64,000 bases of DNA from positions 124,001 to 188,000 of the forward strand of contig JAGVAP010000082.1 in the NCBI GenBank assembly GCA_020060215.1. The letters are read 5' to 3'. The notes under the pieces are model-generated. The model did no database searches and was not told the DNA's origin. It saw nothing but the letters and a program-made list of their open reading frames with translations. This document shows positions 62,621 through 64,000 of this stretch, one piece after another (position 1 is the stretch's first letter; each line of letters begins with the position of its first letter). The DNA comes from Deltaproteobacteria bacterium. Lineage in GTDB: Bacteria > Desulfobacterota > DSM-4660 > Desulfatiglandales > HGW-15. A program made the translations under genes and the position numbers.

Positions 62621-62649
62621 TTGACAAAACCTTTTGGTGTGGATATGAG
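62621..62649 (+). promoter_or_regulatory. Promoter of the leader peptide and DAHP synthase gene
   Basis: TTGACA (62621-62626), 17-base spacer, TATGAG (62644-62649). Predicted start near 62656, about 20 bases before the leader ATG. Confidence 0.7.
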
Positions 62650-62677
62650 TCTCACCATCTGACGAAAGGCCGTAGAG

Positions 62678-62761
62678 ATGGGCAGCAGAGTTTTCCACAG
62701 CCGGTTTTGGTACTTTTACTTTTATTACGGCGCACCGGTCTGCCCATTGAGGAGGTCATAG
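62678..62761 (+). CDS. Leader peptide rich in Phe, Tyr and Trp (27 aa)
   Basis: A 27-codon ORF with AAAGG nine bases before its ATG. It contains FWYFYFYY at residues 10-17 plus one more Phe at residue 6: nine of 27 residues are aromatic. Such clustering is the mark of a leader peptide for ribosome-mediated attenuation: when charged Phe, Tyr or Trp tRNA is short, the ribosome stalls there and RNA folding changes. It ends 30 bases before a terminator hairpin and is followed by a DAHP synthase gene. Confidence 0.8.
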   Translation: MGSRVFHSRFWYFYFYYGAPVCPLRRS

Positions 62762-62790
62762 CCGAGTCGGATCAAAAGTAAGCTAGAACC

Positions 62791-62831
62791 AAGCCATGGA
62801 CAGATCGAAGATGCTGACCATGGCTTTTTTG
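62791..62831 (+). terminator. Attenuator terminator hairpin
   Basis: AGCCATGG (62792-62799) pairs with CCATGGCT (62818-62825), then T residues to 62830. CAG and CTG inside add further pairs. GGTTTTGG (62703-62710, in the Phe/Trp codons) could pair with CCAAGCC (62789-62795), overlapping the 5' arm, and would give an antiterminator; ATGGGCAG (62678-62685) pairs with CTGCCCAT (62740-62747). These alternatives were found by eye and not folded. Confidence 0.75.
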
Positions 62832-62877
62832 TTTCAGGGGCCATGCCAGCCGGAGCATCCTGCCATGGCCCCTGAAA
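62832..62877 (+). other. Second leader hairpin before the DAHP synthase gene
   Basis: TTTCAGGGGCCATG (62832-62845) and CATGGCCCCTGAAA (62864-62877) make a perfect 14-base-pair stem immediately behind the attenuator. There is no T run, so it is not a terminator. Its CCATGGCC segment resembles the attenuator arms, so it may take part in the switch or protect the 5' end of the mRNA. Confidence 0.6.
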
Positions 62878-62974
62878 CTTTGAGGAGCGCTCAATGGTGC
62901 AGGGGGGCGGCCACGGGGATCTCTTTTCAAAAGCGAAGAGGCGCTCGGTAATTCGGATTACGAGGAGGGGAGTC

Positions 62975-64000
62975 ATGAACATCATGATGAAGGAGAATGC
63001 CACCGGGTCCGAGATCGAACACGTGATCCGGTGGGTCGAGTCCGTGGGCTACAAGGCCAGGCTTTGTCACGGGCCCGCGCGAACCGTGGTCAGCGCGATC
63101 GGCGACGACCGGCACAAGGACCGGCTCCAGGCGGCGGAGCAGCTCCCGGGCGTGGAAAGGACCGTGCCCATCCGCAAGCCTTACAAGCTTGCGAGCCGGG
63201 AAGGCAGGGAGGCAGACACGGTCATCCGGGTGGGGAACGTGCAGATCGGGGGCGGCACATTCGTCGTCATGGCGGGTCCATGTTCGGTCGAGAGCCACGA
63301 GCAGATCATGGAGAGCGCCTATGCGGTGATGAAGGGCCGGGCCCATATCCTGCGGGGCGGCGCCTTCAAACCCCGCACCTCTCCCTACAGCTTCCAGGGG
63401 ATGGAGGAGGAGGGGTTGCGGCTCCTGAAGGAGGCGCGGGAGAGCCTTGGCCTGCCTTTCATCACCGAGGTGATGAACACCATGGATGTGGACCTCGTGG
63501 AAGAGTACGCGGATATCCTGCAGATCGGCGCCCGGAACGTCCAGAACTTCCCCCTCCTCAAGAAGGTCGGCCGCATCAGGAAGCCCGTTCTCCTCAAACG
63601 GGGGGTGATGACGACCATCGAGGAGCTGCTCATGTCCGCCGAGTATATCCTCTCCTCGGGCAACGAGGAGGTCATGCTTTGTGAACGGGGGATACGGACC
63701 TTCGAAACCGCCACACGAAACACCCTGGATATCAGCGCAGTGCCGGTCCTGAAGGAATTGACCCATCTGCCCGTCATCGTGGATCCCAGCCACGCTGCAG
63801 GACACTGGAGATATGTGGCCCCCCTTGCCAAGGCGGCCGTTGCGGTGGGCGCAGACGGCATCCTGGTGGAGGTCCATCCTCAGCCTGAAAAGGCGGTCTC
63901 CGACGGACCCCAGTCCCTGAAGCCGGAGAAGTTCTACCGGCTCATGGAGGATATCCGGACCCTGGAAAGGGTGATGCACGCCGGGAACATGGCCGCCTCA
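62975..64000 (+). CDS. aroF: DAHP synthase, type I-beta (3' end outside window)
   Basis: First enzyme of the shikimate pathway, condensing PEP and erythrose-4-phosphate. ATG 62975 follows GAGGAGGGG; 342 codons lie in the window with no stop. The N-terminal 90 residues are an ACT/ferredoxin-like regulatory domain, then the catalytic barrel begins with FVVMAGPCSVESHEQI. Further landmarks are LRGGAFKPRTSPYSFQG, GARNVQNFPLL, LKRGVMTTIEELLMSAEYI, CERGIRTFE and VDPSHAAGHW. The total agrees with the Thermotoga-type (about 338 residues). The aromatic leader and attenuator upstream fit feedback by the pathway's products. Confidence 0.94.
   Translation, partial: MNIMMKENATGSEIEHVIRWVESVGYKARLCHGPARTVVSAIGDDRHKDRLQAAEQLPGVERTVPIRKPYKLASREGREADTVIRVGNVQIGGGTFVVMAGPCSVESHEQIMESAYAVMKGRAHILRGGAFKPRTSPYSFQGMEEEGLRLLKEARESLGLPFITEVMNTMDVDLVEEYADILQIGARNVQNFPLLKKVGRIRKPVLLKRGVMTTIEELLMSAEYILSSGNEEVMLCERGIRTFETATRNTLDISAVPVLKELTHLPVIVDPSHAAGHWRYVAPLAKAAVAVGADGILVEVHPQPEKAVSDGPQSLKPEKFYRLMEDIRTLERVMHAGNMAAS

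Follow-up and report, generated by a model that had tools for sequence, protein, structure and literature searches.

In the window, the whole 64,000-nucleotide stretch of DNA analysed, positions 62621–62878 very probably constitute a ribosome-mediated transcription attenuator that makes aroF respond when any one of Phe, Tyr and Trp runs short. When all three amino acids are plentiful, the ribosome at the stop codon of a leader open reading frame would cover segment 2 of the transcript, the terminator hairpin T1 (segments 3:4) would form, and transcription would end ahead of aroF. With too little of one of the charged tRNAs, the ribosome would stall in an FWYFYFYY run and leave segment 2 free to pair with segment 3, T1 would not form, and RNA polymerase would continue into aroF. 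In relatives whose second hairpin, T2, is a terminator as well, the released segment 4 may in turn pair with segment 5 and so inactivate T2. We infer that in the cell the ribosome stalls and transcription terminates or reads through; the leader, its codons, T1, T2, the 2:3 and 4:5 complementarity, the covariation and the match between codons and genes can be read from the sequence itself. A first-pass annotation had proposed attenuation of aroF at this locus, and at sequence level that class of mechanism holds, with leader, terminator, exclusive pairings and conservation all in place.

All parts of the element lie on the forward strand, between corA (PF01544) and a type I-beta DAHP synthase gene, as first annotated. 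The synthase gene, aroF (62975–64000, cut by the window end), scores 408 bits against TIGR01361 (cut-off 268) and matches PF00793 and the ferredoxin-like domain PF18152; its ribosome-binding site, assigned by sequence, is GAGGAGGG at 62962–62969. Upstream of corA is a Y-family DNA polymerase gene (PF00817, 60152–61306), which has no bearing on the attenuator. The promoter claimed for 62621–62649 is present as a sigma-70-like TTGACA-17-TATGAG with 10 of 12 consensus bases. Downstream of it come a probable leader ribosome-binding site, GAAAGG (62664–62669, by sequence), and the 27-codon reading frame already described at 62678–62761, which has homologous leaders in relatives and whose translated product, MGSRVFHSRFWYFYFYYGAPVCPLRRS, contains nine aromatic residues. 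The regulatory codons F-W-Y-F-Y-F-Y-Y occupy 62705–62728.

Segment 2 (GGTCTGCCCAT, 62737–62747), the predicted 5′ half of the antiterminator, lies 3′ of the aromatic run, covers the codons GTC TGC CCA (VCP) and is near-invariant in 48 sequences. Segment 1 (ATGGGCAGC, 62678–62686) could pair with it (−13.9 kcal/mol) and varies among relatives; a 1:2 stem was rejected as a general feature, being strong in the window and gone where the leader start differs, for example in L047. Two AGG arginine codons at 62750–62755 form a Shine-Dalgarno-like AGGAGG that is frequent in aroF leaders: GGAGG stands at the leader tail in 41 of 75, and AGG accounts for 89 of the 103 arginine codons in aroF leader tails, compared with 14.8% in aroF. 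As a speculation, the AGGAGG after segment 2 perhaps holds the terminating ribosome over that segment.

The GC-rich hairpin followed by T residues in the first-pass annotation is T1, a predicted intrinsic terminator at 62791–62826 (−17.9 kcal/mol) with a U-tract of six T at 62825–62830. Its 5′ arm contains segment 3 (ATGGACAGATC, 62796–62806), whose partner may be segment 2 or segment 4; its 3′ arm is segment 4 (62812–62826), for which segment 5 is the alternative partner (4:5 duplex, −17.8 kcal/mol). The strong second stem ahead of the aroF ribosome-binding site is T2, segments 5:6, at 62831–62878 (−32.0 kcal/mol), which has no U-tract in the window genome and has one in most relatives. A simple consensus scan of the window called neither promoter nor terminator, probably because its −10 rule insists on T as the final base and its hairpin rule on an unbroken stem with a short loop; folding and a direct count of promoters took its place.

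Relatives were taken as the best 80 of 307 matching aroF loci, 77 of which had enough upstream sequence (L056, L070 and L076 had too little). The element is kept at 76 of the 77, so that homologues lacking both the aromatic codons and the terminator, the finding which would have spoken against attenuation, were not what we encountered. Segment 2 lies behind an in-frame aromatic run in 74 of the 76; the other two are L046, whose element is interrupted by an N gap beyond segment 2, and L055, where it lies one gene further upstream in the operon. L039 keeps a terminator-like hairpin and has no leader. Segment 2 is retained even where the start of the leader falls out of frame (L058) or the contig end truncates the upstream sequence (L066); for L074 the automatic choice of leader reading frame was wrong. 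Counting the window, all 75 leaders contain Phe and Tyr codons and 71 contain Trp codons, with 6 to 10 aromatic residues among the 14 codons preceding segment 2. Of 72 loci, 71 have TTGAC at the corresponding place, 60–170 nt ahead of segment 2, and 59 have a promoter that matches at least 10 of the 12 consensus bases, as against 1 among the loci long enough for a control stretch further upstream. A chance origin of promoter or leader is excluded because both are conserved in relatives. The closest aroF among the matches listed, 85% identical, is from the metagenome-assembled genome HGW-Deltaproteobacteria-15.

Folding of an alignment of 48 of the 75 aroF sequences (A1) with RNAalifold returned T1 and T2 and no further helix. 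In these two hairpins 13 of 23 pairs were changed on both sides and 96.1% of cells pair, a result reached by none of 500 shuffles. A U-tract of at least five T in six follows T1 in 66 of the 75 sequences and T2 in 56 (66 at a threshold of at least four). Among nine sequences listed without a T2 U-tract, five have by eye a T-run within the extended predicted stem; the window, L001, L057 and L079 have no T2 T-run at all. Aligned upstream regions of aroF relatives, suggested early on as a check, yielded conserved aromatic codons, mutually exclusive pairings and a T run.

In the window, segment 2 is complementary to segment 3 over 10 of 11 pairs (−13.2 kcal/mol). Imposing 2:3 costs 2.1 kcal/mol relative to the terminated fold. 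Across the aroF alignment 2:3 is paired in 93.0% of cells, compared with 29–39% when the segments are slid against each other. No compensatory two-sided change in 2:3 occurred within the aroF loci, because segment 2 hardly varies there. In the aroF loci alone (34 of the 75 after clustering at 75% identity), 261 of 5000 permutations equalled the preference for native over cross-locus 2:3 pairing. The signal came from copies of the element before other genes: native 2:3 averaged −15.8 against −13.7 kcal/mol cross-locus in 15 of 17 paralogues (3 of 5000 permutations; L102 and L104, without T2, left out of this six-pair test), and −17.1 against −12.2 kcal/mol in 23 of 26 others (0 of 5000; the three excluded are aroF elements, 12 of the 23 have T2, and T1 was miscalled in L183, L189 and L194). 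At sequence level, the mutually exclusive pairing of terminator and antiterminator that had been proposed therefore stands, since 2:3 shares segment 3 with T1, with a different partner from the one first named. The Phe/Trp codons had been thought to pair with the terminator arm; this was rejected, as the fold pairs them with 62773–62790, beside T1, and as an antiterminator they were rejected likewise, the conserved partner of segment 3 being segment 2.

Segment 4 is in addition complementary to segment 5, the 5′ arm of T2, and we are inclined to believe in a six-segment domino in which 4:5 would disarm T2. The 4:5 pairing is present in 92.7% of cells, with a covariation score reached by 2 of 500 shuffles, and exceeded cross-locus pairing in 29 of 34 aroF loci (1 of 5000 permutations), 11 of 15 paralogues (66 of 5000) and 8 of 12 further paralogues (0 of 5000). 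It is somewhat improbable, in our judgement, that T2 and 4:5 instead stand outside the switch, T2 serving as a backup terminator or mRNA-stabilising hairpin and 4:5 being a by-product of a re-used GCCRTGG core. The palindromic GCCATGG of both hairpins would favour such a by-product, and two-sided changes in 4:5 were no commoner than in shuffles (373 of 500). Whereas the decoy pairing 2:5 stayed non-significant throughout (577, 4505, 3501 and 4402 of 5000), two sets gave the decoy 3:6 a mild advantage over chance (144 and 184 of 5000) and two others gave it none (2115 and 1538); palindromic cores therefore inflate such tests, and part of the 4:5 signal may be shared core. The GGC of the T2 loop, however, lies outside the T2 stem and still matches the T1 3′ arm (pair 112:156 is formed in 46 of 48 sequences), and in seven aroF loci (L015, L037, L061, L064, L065, L071 and L072) the best local hairpin found is 4:5 itself.

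Folds and paralogues bear on the same choice. With 2:3 enforced, the window fold retains T2 and does not form 4:5; since T2 of the window has no U-tract, its retention there need not matter for control. Several paralogues have no T2 at all, among them L185 (leuA), L190 (iorA), L196 (korC) and L198 (dapA), which fits a T2 independent of the switch. Some trpB-like elements such as L183 and L194, by contrast, carry a U-tract on 5:6 only and none on 3:4, so that 4:5 (−17.5 and −16.2 kcal/mol, respectively) would be the sole route by which the signal could reach T2, as in the his attenuator. Our weight on the six-segment domino is lowered by the constrained window fold and by the ordinary count of two-sided changes.

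The element is not confined to aroF. We built three covariance models: R1, of the aroF element with its aromatic codons; R2, of segment 2, T1 and T2; and R3, of segment 2 and T1 with four bases before, leader codons being absent from the latter two. R1 matched 13 of 14 aroF genomes and found further copies before other genes with fitting leaders. At E ≤ 0.001, R2 matched 64 of 85 genomes from the class to which G001 belongs, 153 of 155 from that of G004 and 250 of 395 in an even draw across the G001 phylum, presumably Desulfobacterota; in the latter two samples a genome often had several copies. Per-genome rows, up to 10, are upper bounds because the opposite strand of one element may count. 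Minus-strand matches as palindrome artefacts were considered and rejected, the loci simply not having been oriented. Some R2 matches form pairs on opposite strands about 350–560 nt apart (for example G030:C2, G055:C32 and G086:C154), and L119, L127 and L129 have trpE to one side and what by eye is a shikimate kinase gene to the other; two divergent operons may each carry an attenuator. In three genomes 28 R2 rows resolved into 26 elements, 24 of them with a codon run that by eye fits the next gene; of the remaining two, L189 has a Trp run but sits at the end of a contig, and the leader of L198 (dapA) is Lys/Arg-rich with no clean run.

Leaders with Phe, Tyr and Trp precede type I-beta DAHP synthase, type I-alpha DAHP synthase (TIGR00034; L286 and L292) and ADH synthase, which offers another entry into the pathway (TIGR01949; L278, plus seven assigned by similarity). 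Trp leaders precede trpE, trpB (a PALP-domain gene named by eye), a TrpB-like gene and the indolepyruvate oxidoreductase alpha gene. Phe leaders stand before genes for one periplasmic binding protein and for an acyl-CoA ligase, a Tyr leader before another binding protein, Val/Ile/Leu leaders before acetolactate synthase (ilvB), Leu leaders before leuA and a PorC/KorC-type subunit, a Lys leader before dapA, and an Ala leader before an aminotransferase, for which the best model, alanine transaminase, scored below its cut-off. The Phe/Tyr/Trp mix ahead of aroF is unusual, as first supposed, and the copy described there is one of many, since the scaffold recurs, with other codons, before many amino-acid genes.

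Several individual loci extend this list. About 9 kb downstream of the aroF attenuator, the same genomes carry a trpE attenuator with Trp codons (L097, L101, L105 and L108). Trp leaders in L115, L122, L130 and L136 have as next gene, by eye, a trpD-like anthranilate phosphoribosyltransferase, and in L238 and L243 a Trp-run leader (WWWS), in a frame other than the automatic choice, precedes a Phenol_MetA_deg protein. Odd pairings also occur: an F/Y leader lies before a PLP aminotransferase in L098, a leader containing F/Y before aconitate hydratase in L112, and a Leu-run leader before a FabK-like enzyme in L132.

We asked how closely leader codons follow the downstream gene. For 132 of 150 matches, from 60 genomes, with an expected codon set, the mean z was 1.48, compared with a maximum of 0.30 in 10000 label permutations, in a test where the binding proteins, ligase, korC, aminotransferase and iorA received their codon after the leaders had been seen and where the R1 matches come from a model containing aromatic codons. 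Because some classes had their codon assigned after the fact, we adopted a strict test with R2 and R3 matches only: 91 elements from 49 genomes gave a mean z of 1.27 (permutation maximum 0.35), in classes confined to those whose codon follows from the pathway, the leaders having been seen beforehand. The 150 matches omit L081–L093 and L111 (aroF elements of genomes already included), L099 (no upstream sequence), L192/L197 (one element, other strand), L200/L201 (duplicates), L141–L170 and 13 of 29 new loci from the phylum-wide draw; the offset of L110 was wrong. Thirteen of the 150 had no labelled gene, through contig ends, genes TrpD-like by eye and the probable false matches L206 and L263.

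Copies before different operons could in principle have arisen by convergence, with models that only pick up attenuators with GC-rich terminators; we regard this as unlikely. In its favour, segment 2 differs between codon classes (for example ilvB and leuA), short hairpins can converge, and the top R3 score in E. coli, a weak one, falls on the hisL attenuator. The GCCRTGG core and the order segment 2–T1(–T2) nevertheless recur between copies. At E ≤ 1, R3 found nothing outside leader regions in 69 sources (511 kb), namely 68 of the 80 aroF loci plus the window; its other rows came from the T2 or the opposite strand of an element already matched, or from the L039 hairpin. At E ≤ 0.01, neither R2 nor R3 matched anywhere across 250 kb of E. 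coli K-12 sequence that takes in trpL, hisL, pheL, leuL and ilvL. The best R2 score there was a partial hairpin away from those leaders (19.4 bits, E 0.011), and R3 ranked the hisL attenuator first (21 bits, E 0.061) and the pheL attenuator last (11.9 bits, E 4.1), weak scores such as generic resemblance would give.

It is very improbable that the hairpins serve as operators at which some DNA- or RNA-binding regulator acts, the leader being incidental: we would take inverted repeats with palindromic cores as typical operator shapes, but the U-tract behind T1 in 66 of 75 sequences, the tracking of the downstream gene by leader codons and the covarying 2:3 complementarity all speak against operators.

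Rfam leader families include Trp, Phe, His, Leu and Thr leaders. Ten aroF and 20 paralogue loci gave no match at Rfam gathering level, in a library assumed to hold the T-box model, and the window stretch gave two hits, both below the gathering threshold. Like E. coli trpL, pheL, hisL, leuL and ilvL, which have a leader reading frame with regulatory codons, competing stems and a U-tract terminator, the aroF element combines all three. As far as is known, the E. coli attenuators are separate families within one genome, unmatched by R2 or R3 at E ≤ 0.01, whereas here one scaffold serves many operons. At the scale of a regulon the likeness is to T-boxes, in which one scaffold with codon-specific readers precedes many amino-acid genes; T-boxes bind tRNA directly, whereas sensing here would be by a translated leader.

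Among the matches listed from the open-access literature, no title or abstract opening describes such an attenuator family; subscription journals fall mostly outside that literature, and an earlier description is possible. The his attenuator has stems AB, CD and EF and an alternative DE, EF being the terminator (PMC10989985). The element described here shares with it a chain of segments with exclusive pairings, and differs in having U-tracts on 3:4 and usually also on 5:6. A BC stem also belongs to the his attenuator. Ahead of aroF in Acholeplasma, uORFC-13-1 is described as an upstream reading frame plus terminator with at least one Phe codon in 24 sequences (PMC8632094). As so described, it has in common with our element an upstream reading frame and terminator before a DAHP synthase gene, and is set apart by its phylum and by a description in which Tyr and Trp codons are not mentioned. 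Shewanella aroF appears among predicted regulatory RNAs, with a cited idea of a tyr-tRNA attenuator (PMC2659441), and a regulon survey refers to trp and pheA of gammaproteobacteria as subject to attenuation (PMC5343134). The main text of a premature-terminator survey does not name aroF, aroG or DAHP (PMC2965389).

Attenuators are usually viewed as one-off inventions, one per operon. We think it reasonably probable that a single scaffold instead acts as this phylum's general amino-acid starvation sensor, a leader-peptide counterpart of the T-box, whose copies, often six-segmented with two terminators, stand ahead of operons for biosynthesis and for transport and take their specificity from an exchanged codon cassette. 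The Phe/Tyr/Trp version would then have followed the aromatic entry step through replacement of its enzyme, be it type I-beta DAHP synthase, type I-alpha DAHP synthase or ADH synthase. If this is true, attenuation would be a modular, genome-wide sensing system, and the first aromatic step would be governed by a three-amino-acid OR sensor. It would also provide a readable code, in which the leader names the amino acid served by a transporter or enzyme of unknown specificity; two kinds of binding protein would be assigned Phe or Tyr, for example, an aminotransferase Ala and an indolepyruvate oxidoreductase Trp.
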